Assembly (NCBI RefSeq): GCF_030295955.1
Contig: NZ_AP027363.1
Location: 372,001-436,000, forward strand
Direction of reading: 5' to 3'
DNA from: Thalassotalea agarivorans
GTDB taxonomy: Bacteria > Pseudomonadota > Gammaproteobacteria > Enterobacterales > Alteromonadaceae
DNA length: 64,000 nt
Below the pieces are notes generated by a model that was not told the origin of the DNA, did no database searches, and saw only the letters and a list, made by a program, of their open reading frames with translations. Shown one piece after another: positions 40,666 to 45,165 of the stretch. A program made the position numbers and the translations under genes. The first letter of the stretch is position 1, and each line of letters begins with the position of its first letter.

Positions 40666-41634
40666 ATGAGAAAGAAAATAGATCATAGATTTTGTGTTGC
40701 TCCGATGCTGGATTGGACAGATCGTCATTGTCGTTACTTTTACCGTGCAATGAGTAAGCACACTGTACTTTACACGGAAATGGTGACAACTGGTGCAATT
40801 CTGTATGGAAAATGGGACTACCTGGCGTATAACCAAGAAGAGCATCCAGTGGTATTGCAACTTGGCGGTAGCGATGTAAAAGCAATGACAGAGTGCGCTA
40901 AGATTGCACAAGACCGAGGCTATGATGAAATTAACATTAATGTTGGTTGCCCGTCTGATCGCGTGCAAAATGGTAGATTTGGTGCCTGCTTAATGGCAGA
41001 GCCAGAACTCGTCGCTGACTGTGTAGCTAGTATGCAAGCGCAAGTTGATATTCCTATAACGGTTAAATCACGTATTGGTATTGACGATCAGGACAGTTAT
41101 GAATTTCTGCATACTTTTATCGATACTGTCGCCAAGGCTGATTGTAAGCACTTTATCATTCATGCTCGCAAAGCATGGCTAAGTGGTTTAAGCCCAAAAC
41201 AAAACAGAGAAATACCACCGCTTGATTACTCGCGGGTATATCAAATTAAACAAGAATTTTCAGATCGTTTGATTTCTATCAATGGCGGGATCACCAGTTT
41301 CGAGCAAACGCTTGAGCATCTAAATCATGTCGATGGTGTCATGATTGGCCGTGAGGTTTACTACAACCCATATATTTTAGCGAGTGCGGATCAAACTATA
41401 TACGGTGCAGATACCCCGATCATTACCCGAGAAGCACTAATAGATCATATGTGTGAATACATTGACCAAGTTGTCGCATCAGAGCAAGGTAGGGCATGGC
41501 ATGTGATCCGCCATATGATTTCGATGTGCAATGGTTTACCTGGTGCCAAGAAATTCAGACGCTACCTAAGCGAACAATGCCAAGTTGAAAATAGCAGCCA
41601 AGTATTACGTGACGCGTTTAAACTCGTTGGTTAA
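40666..41634 (+). CDS. dusA: tRNA-dihydrouridine(20/20a) synthase DusA, 5' end rebuilt by element
   Basis: 322 residues. It reduces U20/U20a in tRNA with FMN. Motifs: APMLDWTDRHCRYFYR, the catalytic Cys in INVGCPSDRVQNGRFGACLM, NGGI and HHxR-type sequences (ARKAWLSGLSPKQNREIPPL). The start MRKKIDHRF comes from the element, with ribosome binding site AAGGAAGG; host sequence begins at the att core (40711-40719), so integration preserves a complete enzyme but changes the promoter, leader and first residues. Confidence 0.95.
   Translation: MRKKIDHRFCVAPMLDWTDRHCRYFYRAMSKHTVLYTEMVTTGAILYGKWDYLAYNQEEHPVVLQLGGSDVKAMTECAKIAQDRGYDEININVGCPSDRVQNGRFGACLMAEPELVADCVASMQAQVDIPITVKSRIGIDDQDSYEFLHTFIDTVAKADCKHFIIHARKAWLSGLSPKQNREIPPLDYSRVYQIKQEFSDRLISINGGITSFEQTLEHLNHVDGVMIGREVYYNPYILASADQTIYGADTPIITREALIDHMCEYIDQVVASEQGRAWHVIRHMISMCNGLPGAKKFRRYLSEQCQVENSSQVLRDAFKLVG
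40705..40720 (+). other. Right attachment site (attR)
   Basis: ATGCTGGATTGGACA (40705-40719), pairing with 22245-22259; core GATTGGACA lies within dusA codons for MLDWT. Confidence 0.85.
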
Positions 41635-41764
41635 TCAAATTGGTTAAAAATTGGTCTATTTTGCCAATGTAGGGTGTTTCAGCCGCCGTCGGCTTTTCTA
41701 TCAAAACCATTTCTTAAAATTAAATTATTATAAATTTCAATGATTTATGATTTTTTTACTATTC

Positions 41765-41779
41765 TGGCACAACCTTTGT
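41765..41779 (+). promoter_or_regulatory. Sigma-54-like promoter of small secreted protein 1
   Basis: TGGCACAACCTTTGT: GG at -24 and TTG-T at -12 spacing; consensus is TGGCAC-n5-TTGCW, so one mismatch in the -12 GC. It lies 105 bp upstream of the 41885 start. Confidence 0.55.
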
Positions 41780-41884
41780 AAGTGTTATTGCAACTTAATA
41801 AGTAATCGAATGAGTTAAATCACACGATTATGGCAACCGCTTTTACTTGTAATTACGCAATGGAAGCACCGAAGGAGAGTAACG

Positions 41885-42160
41885 ATGAAAGCATTAAAAA
41901 TAACTGTAGTAGCAGTTGCGATGTTCACATCAGTTACTTCGTTAGCCAATCAAGCTGTACAGGTTAAACAAGTAACTGATCAAATGGTGAGCAAGCAACA
42001 AGCCACTTTTAATCAAACATTAAACGATCAATTACTGTTGGATATTCAAAAAGCTGGTATCGCACTAAAATACGAAATGGCGACTAAAGAGGCGCAAAAA
42101 ACGTTATTAGTTAAAGCGACCAGTGACAAAAATAAGAAAGATAACACGGTAAATAAATAA
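41885..42160 (+). CDS. Small secreted protein 1 near psp genes
   Basis: 91 residues with a signal peptide (about 1-21, ...TSVTSLANQ). The ribosome binding site GAAGGAGAG is strong. The mature part is helical and Gln/Lys rich, ending in a Lys/Asp tail. It resembles the 43463 protein in length, signal peptide, helical periplasmic part and sigma-54-like promoter, but identity is low. No family recognised. Probably part of a PspF/sigma-54 envelope-stress regulon. Confidence 0.65.
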   Translation: MKALKITVVAVAMFTSVTSLANQAVQVKQVTDQMVSKQQATFNQTLNDQLLLDIQKAGIALKYEMATKEAQKTLLVKATSDKNKKDNTVNK

Positions 42161-42173
42161 CGGGTTTATGACA

Positions 42174-42275
42174 ATGTTAAGTACTATTTCACTACTTACT
42201 ATGATGATTCTGCCAAGCATTTGCTTACTAATCACATCGATAGTAGTCAGAGTTTTAGAGATACATTCCGAGTAG
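42174..42275 (+). CDS. 33-residue membrane microprotein
   Basis: ATG at 42174 (or in-frame 42168) reads MLSTISLLTMMILPSICLL, then a few more hydrophobic residues and a polar end RVLEIHSE before TAG at 42273. One membrane helix. It begins 13 bp after the secreted protein 1 stop. Compare the 36-residue microprotein after pspA. The ribosome binding site is weak, so it could be spurious. Confidence 0.4.
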   Translation: MLSTISLLTMMILPSICLLITSIVVRVLEIHSE

Positions 42276-42405
42276 CGGTAGGTTTAACTGCAATAGCAGT
42301 TAGGTGAATGCTTGTTTGAGACAAGTTTCACCGCCTCACCAGCACTTGGGTCTTTTGCTAAAGTTAGCGTAAAGTATATGAAAAGACTCAAGGCAACTAC
42401 CTTAC

Positions 42406-43242
42406 ATGTTCCAATCACCGATCATCTCAGCGAAACAACTTCTCGATAACGTTTCAAACACTTTAGTTAAAGTACTCGATGCGAGCATTCCGCCAATAGG
42501 CATCAATAAACAGCCGCAATATGCTTGGCCGCAGCAGGTGATACCTGGCGCGCTTAAATGTGACATCAATCAAGCCTTTTCCGATCACAACGCAACAACC
42601 GCCCATGCGATGTTATCTCCAGCCGCATTCCAGCAACAGGCACGCCAGTTAGGTATTAATCAAAATGACACGCTAGTGGTTTACGATAATTTGGGTCTGT
42701 TTAGTGCCGCTAGAGTTTGGTACATGTTTAAAAGTATGGGGCATAAACACGTCGTGGTCCTTGATGGCGGCATTGACGCCTGGGTAGCGGCCGGCGGCAA
42801 ATTGGCTAAAGCACAATCAAACTCAAATTCGATTGGAAATTTTGTCTCCCAACCTGTTGCTGGCGCTTTTGCTGATAAACATGATGTATTGGCGGCTATA
42901 AAACATAACTCTCATTGTATTGTTGATGCTCGTTCACCGCAGCGCTTTTTAGGATTGGTTGAAGAACCTAGGGCGGGCGTTCGCAGTGGACATATTCCCA
43001 CATCAATCAATCTATTCTTTAATGATTTGCTTCAAGATGGATATTTATTATCTCAGCCAGCATTAGACGCCTTGTTTGCGCAAGCTAAGGCCTGCGAGCA
43101 AAAAGTCATCTACAGCTGTGGTTCTGGTGTGACCGCATGTATTTTAGCTTTGGCTGGAGAAACCATAGGAATTTCTGACTATACCGTTTACGACGGTTCA
43201 TGGTCAGAATGGGGGGCAGATCACACCTTACCAATTGCCTAA
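42406..43242 (+). CDS. sseA: Two-domain rhodanese sulfurtransferase, SseA-like
   Basis: 278 residues, two tandem rhodanese domains. The N-terminal domain is inactive-like (VVYDNLGLFSAARVWYMFKSMGH). The C-terminal domain has the active-site loop CGSGVTAC (Cys about 240), matching the 3-mercaptopyruvate sulfurtransferase CG-S-G-V-T type. The DARSPQRFLGLVEEPRAGVRSGHIP block is typical of SseA. It sits between the two sigma-54-like units; it may have its own promoter. Whether it belongs to the stress regulon is unclear. Confidence 0.9.
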   Translation: MFQSPIISAKQLLDNVSNTLVKVLDASIPPIGINKQPQYAWPQQVIPGALKCDINQAFSDHNATTAHAMLSPAAFQQQARQLGINQNDTLVVYDNLGLFSAARVWYMFKSMGHKHVVVLDGGIDAWVAAGGKLAKAQSNSNSIGNFVSQPVAGAFADKHDVLAAIKHNSHCIVDARSPQRFLGLVEEPRAGVRSGHIPTSINLFFNDLLQDGYLLSQPALDALFAQAKACEQKVIYSCGSGVTACILALAGETIGISDYTVYDGSWSEWGADHTLPIA

Positions 43243-43381
43243 ACTATTGATTGGTCAAAATGACCAACTAGATAATATTTTGACCACTTGTTCGTTCTTC
43301 TTTCATACCAAATAACTCTATCAAATTTTTCGTTGTCTAAATTTTTATAATTAAAACAGTATCTTAATTATTTTTTAAAAG

Positions 43382-43400
43382 TTGGCACGCCACTTGTAAT
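43382..43400 (+). promoter_or_regulatory. Sigma-54-like promoter of the pspA operon
   Basis: TTGGCACGCCACTTGTAAT: perfect -24 TGGCACG and -12 TTGT (consensus TTGC). About 63 bp upstream of the 43463 start. PspA operons are known sigma-54/PspF targets. Confidence 0.65.
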
Positions 43401-43462
43401 AGTAAGTGTGTAATTAACTAATTTAACAAATAACACAGATAGTGACATTCAAAGGAAAAATC

Positions 43463-43756
43463 ATGAAAACGGTAAAAATGAGTGTTGTATTAACAGGGTT
43501 TTTAGCAGGTATGTTGTCGTTTACAACCTTAGCAAGCAACGAAAAGTTAACCACAGATATTGAACATGCATTAGCAAACCAAAATGCAGCAGTAAAAGCG
43601 AACATTAGCAATCAGTTCAAACGTTCAGTATCAGAGCAATTGTCTCAACTAGCGATTGAGAACGAAGTGCTACTACAAAGTGTTGCATTGGATTCGTTAA
43701 ACAAAAACGAAAACGATGACACAAACAAAACAGAAATTATTGCATCGGCAAAGTAA
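43463..43756 (+). CDS. Small secreted protein 2, first gene of psp operon
   Basis: 97 residues from the ATG at 43463 (AAAGGAAAAATC upstream); a start at 43442 would add seven residues before the signal peptide. Signal peptide about 1-24 (ending FTTLAS). The mature part is helical (LANQNAAVKANISNQFKRSVSEQL). It ends 12 bp before pspA and shares the sigma-54-like promoter, so it is likely induced with PspA. Analogue of the 41885 protein. Function unknown. Confidence 0.7.
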   Translation: MKTVKMSVVLTGFLAGMLSFTTLASNEKLTTDIEHALANQNAAVKANISNQFKRSVSEQLSQLAIENEVLLQSVALDSLNKNENDDTNKTEIIASAK

Positions 43757-43768
43757 TAGGAGTCAATC

Positions 43769-44449
43769 ATGGGAATTTTTTCACGCTTTACAGATATTGT
43801 TAACGCCAATTTAAATAGCTTATTAGACAAGGCTGAACATCCTGAGAAAATGATCCGCATGATCATCCAGGAGATGGAAGAAACCTTAGTTGAAGTACGT
43901 GCCACCGCAGCCAAACAAATCGCTGAGAAAAAACATGTACAACGTCAGTTACGTCAATTAGCAACATCGGTTTCAAATTGGCAAGACAAAGCCGAACTGG
44001 CTATTGCAAAAGGTCGCGAAGATCTAGCTCGCTCTGCACTGACGCAAAAGTTAAAAGCACAAGAAGAGCATGATGAATTGCAAAATGTGCTAACTGAAAT
44101 AGACAAGATGCTGGATGCTATCCAAGAAGATAGCAGCAAGTTACAAGCTAAGCTAACGGAAGCTAAGCGTCGTCAAGAAGCATTATTAATGCGTCAACAA
44201 TCGGCAGAAGTTCGTTTGAAAGCGCGTGAAAAGGCTGTTGTTTACAACATCGACGAAGCAATTGGTAAGTTTGAGCGTTATCAGCAAAAAATTGACCGCA
44301 TCGAGGCAGAAGTAGAGGCGTTTGATGTAACAGCAGAAAACGACTTGGAAAGCCAGTTTAAAGCGCTAGAGCAAGACGAAAAACTTGCCGAAGAATTAGC
44401 TGCTTTAAAAGCGAAGACCGCTAATAAAAAGGCAAATGCTAAGGAATAG
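43769..44449 (+). CDS. pspA: Phage shock protein A
   Basis: 226 residues, full PspA/IM30 length. N-terminal amphipathic membrane-binding helix MGIFSRFTDIVNANLNSLLD and then a long coiled coil with conserved EHPEKMIRMIIQEMEE (about 23-38). It binds stressed inner membrane and, in E. coli, inhibits PspF. Part of the unit 43463-pspA-microprotein-pspC-44809. No pspF is in the window. Confidence 0.95.
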   Translation: MGIFSRFTDIVNANLNSLLDKAEHPEKMIRMIIQEMEETLVEVRATAAKQIAEKKHVQRQLRQLATSVSNWQDKAELAIAKGREDLARSALTQKLKAQEEHDELQNVLTEIDKMLDAIQEDSSKLQAKLTEAKRRQEALLMRQQSAEVRLKAREKAVVYNIDEAIGKFERYQQKIDRIEAEVEAFDVTAENDLESQFKALEQDEKLAEELAALKAKTANKKANAKE

Positions 44450-44451
44450 CA

Positions 44452-44562
44452 ATGATTAACGTGCCATGGATAGCAGTATGTACATTATGTTTAGCGCCAG
44501 CATTCTTGTTTTTATTGCTGGGCTTAACCTTCGCAACATTTAGTTCTCCAAAGCGGAGATAA
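44452..44562 (+). CDS. 36-residue membrane microprotein in psp operon
   Basis: ATG 2 bp after the pspA stop (TAGCAATG) reads MINVPWIAVCTLCLAPAFLF, then a hydrophobic stretch LLLGLTFATF and a basic end SSPKRR, stop at 44560-44562. It fills the pspA-pspC gap exactly, the place of pspB in E. coli, but is only half PspB's length and lacks its cytoplasmic leucine-zipper part. Two-Cys membrane helix; inner-membrane, C-terminus inside by the positive-inside rule. Confidence 0.6.
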   Translation: MINVPWIAVCTLCLAPAFLFLLLGLTFATFSSPKRR

Positions 44563-44571
44563 GGGTTAAAA

Positions 44572-44790
44572 ATGAAATATCAAAGAGACTATGGTTTAGA
44601 AAGAACTTTGTCTAAAGATAACCTAAACAAAAAATTATCAGGAGTATGTGCCGGTATCGCTAGATACTACGACTTAGCGCCCCTTTTTGTGCGAGTGCTA
44701 GCGATATTGGCATTACTAATGTTCCCAATGGCTACAGGTGTTGCATACATAGTAGCTGCAGCATTAATGCCTAATAGCAAACACTATTAG
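44572..44790 (+). CDS. pspC: PspC-domain protein
   Basis: 72 residues, the minimal PspC domain: LSKDNLNKKLSGVCAGIARYYDLAPLFVRVL (in parts, about 14-45) then two hydrophobic segments. E. coli PspC is longer with a C-terminal leucine zipper, absent here. It senses inner-membrane stress with PspB. Follows the microprotein by 9 bp, ribosome binding site GGAGATAAGGG. Confidence 0.9.
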   Translation: MKYQRDYGLERTLSKDNLNKKLSGVCAGIARYYDLAPLFVRVLAILALLMFPMATGVAYIVAAALMPNSKHY

Positions 44791-44808
44791 GCCATTTTGG
44801 AGAGCAAT

Positions 44809-45165
44809 ATGACCTTTTTAAAATCCTTATGCTTAGCGATTTTAGCGACCGTTGTGCTAACCGTATTTTTGGGCTTAGGATTATTGGAAATGTTTGACAT
44901 TGATGTTGTCGTCGATTCACAAATCTTGGAGCCTTTGGCCGCGATAGGCCTTTCAGCATTAGTGGCAGTGTTTTTGGTACTAGTCGCTTTTGCTATTGTG
45001 TTGACCGTATTCGGTTCATTGATATTCGCAGCAGTAGTTGCTGTTGGTGCTATAGCGATGGCGCTAGTTGGCGTGTTTTGGCCAATACTTGTTGCTGCAT
45101 TTATTATATGGCTGCTGTTTAGAGATAAAAAACAGCCACAGCGATATCACCAGTATCAACGTTAA
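44809..45165 (+). CDS. Inner-membrane protein, end of psp operon
   Basis: 118 residues from the ATG at 44809 (GGAG at 44799 decides the start; a TTG at 44797 would lie in the ribosome binding site). Three to four hydrophobic segments, with a Lys/Arg/Gln tail (FRDKKQPQRYHQYQR). Not recognised as a named family; PspD/PspG-like by position only. It overlaps the convergent enoyl-CoA hydratase end by 4 bp. Confidence 0.65.
   Translation: MTFLKSLCLAILATVVLTVFLGLGLLEMFDIDVVVDSQILEPLAAIGLSALVAVFLVLVAFAIVLTVFGSLIFAAVVAVGAIAMALVGVFWPILVAAFIIWLLFRDKKQPQRYHQYQR

Follow-up and report, generated by a model that had tools for sequence, protein, structure and literature searches.

A second phage-shock locus downstream of dusA in Thalassotalea agarivorans is a likely additional output of the PspF switch

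Organization of psp2 and of the canonical psp operon

The window analysed in this work is a 64-kb stretch of DNA of the marine bacterium Thalassotalea agarivorans (NZ_AP027363.1), and coordinates are positions within it unless genome positions are indicated. Directly after dusA, the plus strand carries a group of genes that we designated psp2, for second phage-shock locus (Table 1). The dusA-type gene is followed by UAS1, P1, sec1, mic1, a rhodanese gene, UAS2 and P2, and then by sec2, pspA2, mic2, pspC2 and TM3; the next gene encodes an enoyl-CoA hydratase and lies on the opposite strand. A preliminary description of this DNA had each of two sigma-54 boxes followed by a gene for a small exported protein and then by genes for short membrane proteins, and this gene order proved right: sec1 precedes a 35-aa TM ORF, and sec2 precedes pspA2, a 36-aa TM ORF, a 72-aa PspC-domain protein and a 118-aa membrane protein.

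Table 1. Features of the psp2 locus, with positions in the 64-kb window.
Feature	Position	Strand	Evidence or remark
dusA-type tRNA-dihydrouridine synthase	40666..41634	+	PF01207, 3.7e-87; 62% identical to E. coli DusA
UAS1, PspF-type enhancer TTGGTCTATTTTGCCAA, -114 from P1	41651..41667	.	matrix rank 2 in the window
Terminator-like hairpin of dusA, between UAS1 and P1	41681..41694	+	single pattern match; overall count of such matches not above shuffles
P1, sigma-54 promoter TGGCACAACCTTTGT	41765..41779	+	the same 15-mer precedes psp2 in 26 more loci
sec1, 91-aa exported helical protein	41885..42160	+	relatives after P1; profile match to sec2
mic1, 35-aa single-TM microprotein	42168..42275	+	conserved P1-driven family
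Two-domain rhodanese, 3-mercaptopyruvate sulfurtransferase-like, between the two units	42406..43242	+	domain profile matches
UAS2, PspF-type enhancer TTGGTCAAAATGACCAA, -132 from P2	43251..43267	.	matrix rank 1 in the window
P2, sigma-54 promoter TGGCACGCCACTTGT	43383..43397	+	counterparts ahead of pspA2 in relatives
sec2, 97-aa exported protein, one long helix at residues 26-83	43463..43756	+	53 loci including the window
pspA2, second PspA	43769..44449	+	PF04012, 2.9e-37; TIGR02977; separate clade
mic2, 36-aa single-TM microprotein	44452..44562	+	present in 22 loci
pspC2, 72 aa, PspC domain only	44572..44790	+	PF04024, 8e-16; 59 loci
TM3, 118-aa membrane protein with 3 TM segments, conserved ...VFG...FWP...	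44809..45165	+	C-terminal part weakly PspG-like

The dusA gene is a conserved upstream neighbour in most relatives and lies outside the regulon; UAS1 falls in the region right behind its end. The rhodanese gene was found at the same place in only 16 of approximately 57 psp2 loci; its membership in the regulon is uncertain, and the idea that it is the equivalent of PspE was dropped because of this inconsistent presence. Immediately upstream of dusA is a gene for a phage-type integrase (PF00589; 39315-40469, minus strand), which suggests that the dusA site harbours an integrative element. A second copy of the dusA 5' stretch used as query was not found within the 64-kb window.

The genome also possesses a canonical psp operon at 1.116 Mb, with a divergent pspF and the order pspA-pspB-pspB-pspC, and hence the locus in the window is a second psp locus that adds to the canonical one and does not replace it. 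The earlier proposal of a variant psp regulon with two sigma-54 promoters is strongly supported by comparison with relatives, through conserved boxes, phased PspF-type enhancers, linkage of a secreted protein to psp in most relatives and a PspA above the TIGR02977 cut-off, with the complete canonical operon as an addition in the same genome. The two pspB genes of the canonical operon are in tandem (L001:2200-2657). The PspF protein encoded there is 57% identical to that of E. coli, with a near-identical recognition helix (LTYHQ.R..LKK). With the pspF-pspABCDE systems of E. coli and Yersinia, psp2 shares a sigma-54 promoter with an upstream PspF UAS, PspA and PspC, and, with that of E. coli, a nearby rhodanese (PspE in E. 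coli). In contrast to these systems, it lacks both the divergent adjacent pspF and the pspB between pspA and pspC, its PspC is devoid of the C-terminal region, it has two promoters, it adds exported helical proteins and TM microproteins, and it coexists with a canonical operon.

Sigma-54 promoters and PspF-type enhancers

Both sigma-54 boxes named in the preliminary description were borne out, TGGCACAACCTTTGT exactly at 41765 and TGGCACGCCACTTGT at 43383, one base from the 43384 given there, and both have the GG-N10-G[CT] pattern of a -24/-12 box. Counting of boxes was rejected as evidence in itself, since the window contains six consensus-like boxes with at most one mismatch, which is not above the 4.98 expected by chance; in the 3.35-Mb genome, the pattern TGGCACN5TTGY has 22 exact matches versus 6 for the reversed control pattern. 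P1 and P2 are judged to be real because they are conserved in relatives and are paired with phased enhancers. The P1 15-mer is identical in all 27 P1 promoters scored, these having been called by 15-mer identity so that divergent P1 boxes would escape. A consensus P2 box is absent in four loci of the Thalassotalea/Colwellia type (L036, L053, L071, and L072).

Upstream of each promoter is a 17-bp palindrome, at 41651 for P1 and 43251 for P2, which is close to TTRGTYAATTTRACYAA and matches the PspF enhancer. A first UAS matrix was built from psp2 sites, including both sites of the window, and gave a score of at least 10 in 94.5% of 55 P2 and 78% of 27 P1 promoters compared to 3% of control windows. 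Nearly all of the enhancers are located at -110 to -114 or -131 to -134, i.e., at about -112 or -132, two fixed phases of the helix that are kept across the family. Since the window sites had been part of the training set, a second matrix was made without them from canonical pspF-pspA regions of other genomes. In the 64-kb window this matrix ranked UAS2 (20.1) and UAS1 (16.7) as the top two sites, with the next at 8.4, although the two matrices are not wholly independent because it was with the psp2 matrix that the canonical training sites had been found. The second matrix also recovered the enhancers of E. coli pspA (19.8) and pspG (16.3), which were part of neither training set; this agrees with the reported binding of PspF to UASs at these two promoters (PMC3709507).

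The same UAS is present at -113 in the genome's own canonical pspF-pspA promoter and, among relatives, between pspF and pspA in most of the 30 canonical pspA loci, and it is absent from all 20 other consensus sigma-54 boxes of the genome. Taken from these sequence matches, PspF probably controls both P1 and P2. In several relatives (L157, L158, and L160-L162, among others), the canonical pspF-pspA intergenic region carries the UAS and lacks a clear GG-N10-G[CT] box where one would be expected. A repeat-rich, toast-rack-like lipoprotein gene (L213:2119-3113; genome approximately 1228118-1229112) also has a PspF-type UAS, at -112 from TGGCAAGCTAATTGT. The lipoprotein gene at genome position 1228285 was rejected as a third target, as the UAS and box are not kept in most orthologs, possibly with the exception of L230.

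Conservation and properties of the psp2 gene products

A search for relatives of PspA2 in genome contigs yielded 80 loci, of which roughly the first 57 are psp2 loci. The promoter, the exported protein, pspA, the short pspC and the gene for a protein with three TM segments recur in most of these, far beyond chance, and the surrounding genes are syntenic. The preliminary description had named secreted proteins unconnected with psp in relatives as a ground for its rejection; this was checked and is not the case, the connection being present in most relatives. Including the window, 59 PspC2, 58 TM3 and 53 exported protein sequences were extracted. Among the Colwelliaceae loci, nearly all have a sigma-54 box upstream of pspA2, in most cases with the exported protein gene between the two. 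At the same place in more distant family members, a sigma-54 box with a UAS occurs together with genes for an exported protein (about 90 aa) and a TM microprotein (about 45 aa); one member of the family (L188) contains unit 1 (promoter, exported protein, and TM microprotein) in two tandem copies. In Pleionea and a related MAG (L097, L099, and L106), the gene for another short TM protein overlaps the pspA start. At least two PspA matches were found in 88 of 119 family genomes; among the 15 PspA copies read, 12 were of the psp2 type and three canonical.

PspA2 scored 263.7 bits against TIGR02977, over the equivalog cut-off of 242.95. Together with its relatives from the family it forms a clade (97/91 support) separate from the canonical PspA proteins, among which E. 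coli PspA falls; the tree was rooted at the midpoint and so does not fix the order of events. PspC2 reached 51.3 bits against the full-length PspC model TIGR02978, under the cut-off of 104, and lacks the C-terminal region of canonical PspC. Profile-profile comparison of TM3 with PspG gave a weak C-terminal match, at 75% and then, with more members, 84% over 29 columns, with reversed controls at 1-3% (1% for the 84% match). The PspG family PF09583 had no match in the genome and none with the TM3 proteins. The possibility that mic1 and mic2 encode truncated PspB was discarded, as hhalign gave only 4% and 2%. Many loci other than the 22 counted in Table 1 yielded no mic2 gene. Median pairwise dN/dS was below 1 in every family of small ORFs (0.34 for mic1), these values being rough owing to the exclusion of saturated pairs.

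The N-termini of Sec1 and Sec2 resemble signal peptides. The structure model of Sec2 is a single helix with a pLDDT of about 85 in the core; pTM was low in both models made (0.34 for Sec2, and 0.39). Comparison of the Sec1 and Sec2 profiles gave 94.6% with the signal peptides and 65% without them, and the two proteins are probably homologous. No family of Pfam or NCBIfam matched the exported proteins over its cut-off, and PDB sequences gave no meaningful match either. A single-sequence search with Sec2 found no relative in 59 other genomes because the family evolves fast (the median dN/dS of approximately 0.55 is the highest among the small ORF families), and it was synteny that revealed the relatives. 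The proposal of a membrane-binding amphipathic helix was rejected, for the hydrophobic moment was not above that of shuffled versions, which counts against simple binding to the membrane surface.

Proposed function and relation to pspG

We consider it very probable, on the strength of the sequence data, that psp2 is a second phage-shock locus and an extra output of the PspF switch, and we infer that PspF would act on it in vivo and induce it together with canonical psp. From known Psp biology, PspA would inhibit PspF at rest, and stress at the inner membrane would pull PspA to the membrane and free PspF. The freed activator would then bind the enhancers and turn on P1, P2 and the canonical operon at the same time. 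PspA2, PspC2 and the PspG-like protein would strengthen the membrane from the cytoplasmic side and from within, the exported helices would act in the periplasm, and PspA2 may feed back on PspF. Our guess, put forward with less than even confidence, is that the exported helices could be effectors kept near the inner membrane by the co-transcribed microproteins.

It is unlikely that the exported helices are instead sensors on the outer face of the inner membrane, whose removal by stress would signal through PspC2/PspA2 and free PspF. Their genetic linkage to pspA2 and pspC2 in most relatives and the presence of similar exported proteins at the head of both units would suit a sensor, but they are themselves outputs of the switch that they would sense. 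Moreover, some loci have no exported protein at P2 (L037, L042, L045, L055, and L087), and in Cognaticolwellia unit 1 retains its promoter and mic1 with sec1 gone. The view of the exported helix as a detached C-terminal domain of PspC, the region that PspC2 lacks, was rejected as well, since the helices show no profile similarity to it. Because they are PspF outputs and are missing from some units, the exported proteins seem to fit an effector or feedback role better than that of a primary sensor, as far as sequence can tell.

Still less probable is that psp2 is an old psp duplication with no distinct role in which the small ORFs are incidental. The fast evolution of the exported proteins and the single PspA of some family members would fit such a history; against it, the Colwelliaceae loci read have retained pspC2 and TM3, most of them also have the promoters and enhancers, and the pair of exported protein and TM microprotein recurs behind P1 in distant members of the family. 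The least probable reading is that P1 and P2 depend on sigma-54 with an enhancer-binding protein other than PspF: many gammaproteobacteria have several sigma-54 activators and our assignment is based on the enhancer match, but the palindrome equals the one found in the genome's own canonical promoter, in relatives and at E. coli pspA and pspG, and none of the psp2 genes was recognized as encoding an activator.

PspA paralogs and diverse gene contexts have been described in many phyla (Ravi et al., 2024, PMC11237479; Popp et al., 2022, PMC9239133). By keyword, a dusA-linked second psp locus with exported helices does not appear in the main texts of these two papers or in the open full-text literature, and within this scope it is provisionally new.

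PspG is known as an 'orphan' PspF target. Like psp2, E. coli pspG adjoins dusA, and dusA lies beside pspG in 12 of 19 pspG loci of the order; several families besides that of E. coli also have an orphan pspG after dusA. In the E. coli dusA-pspG region (L218), a G+C-rich inverted stretch separates the UAS (2222) from the box (2290), an order identical to that of UAS1, hairpin and P1. Both loci thus combine dusA, a PspF UAS, a sigma-54 box and a gene for a small membrane protein, with psp2 being a PspF target as predicted from sequence. Unlike the single gene of E. coli, psp2 comprises two units with pspA2, pspC2 and exported proteins, and TM3 is longer than E. coli PspG and weakly PspG-like. 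Based on the common dusA neighbour, the enhancer, the order of the promoter elements and the weak likeness of the last membrane protein, E. coli pspG may be the counterpart, perhaps a remnant, of a fuller locus. In a wider and rather speculative form, the dusA-pspG of enterobacteria and related families could correspond, in reduced form, to a complete and ancient second Psp system retained by the Alteromonadaceae together with its periplasmic arm.

A second psp locus at the place of pspG, with its own PspA, PspC and PspG-like protein, provides a concrete context for PspG. The exported helices and microproteins would extend the PspF regulon into the periplasm beyond PspE and would be, to our knowledge, its first periplasmic components besides PspE. 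If the wider proposal is true, PspF would govern the repair of the inner membrane from both of its faces, with the exported helices and TM microproteins forming the periplasmic arm.
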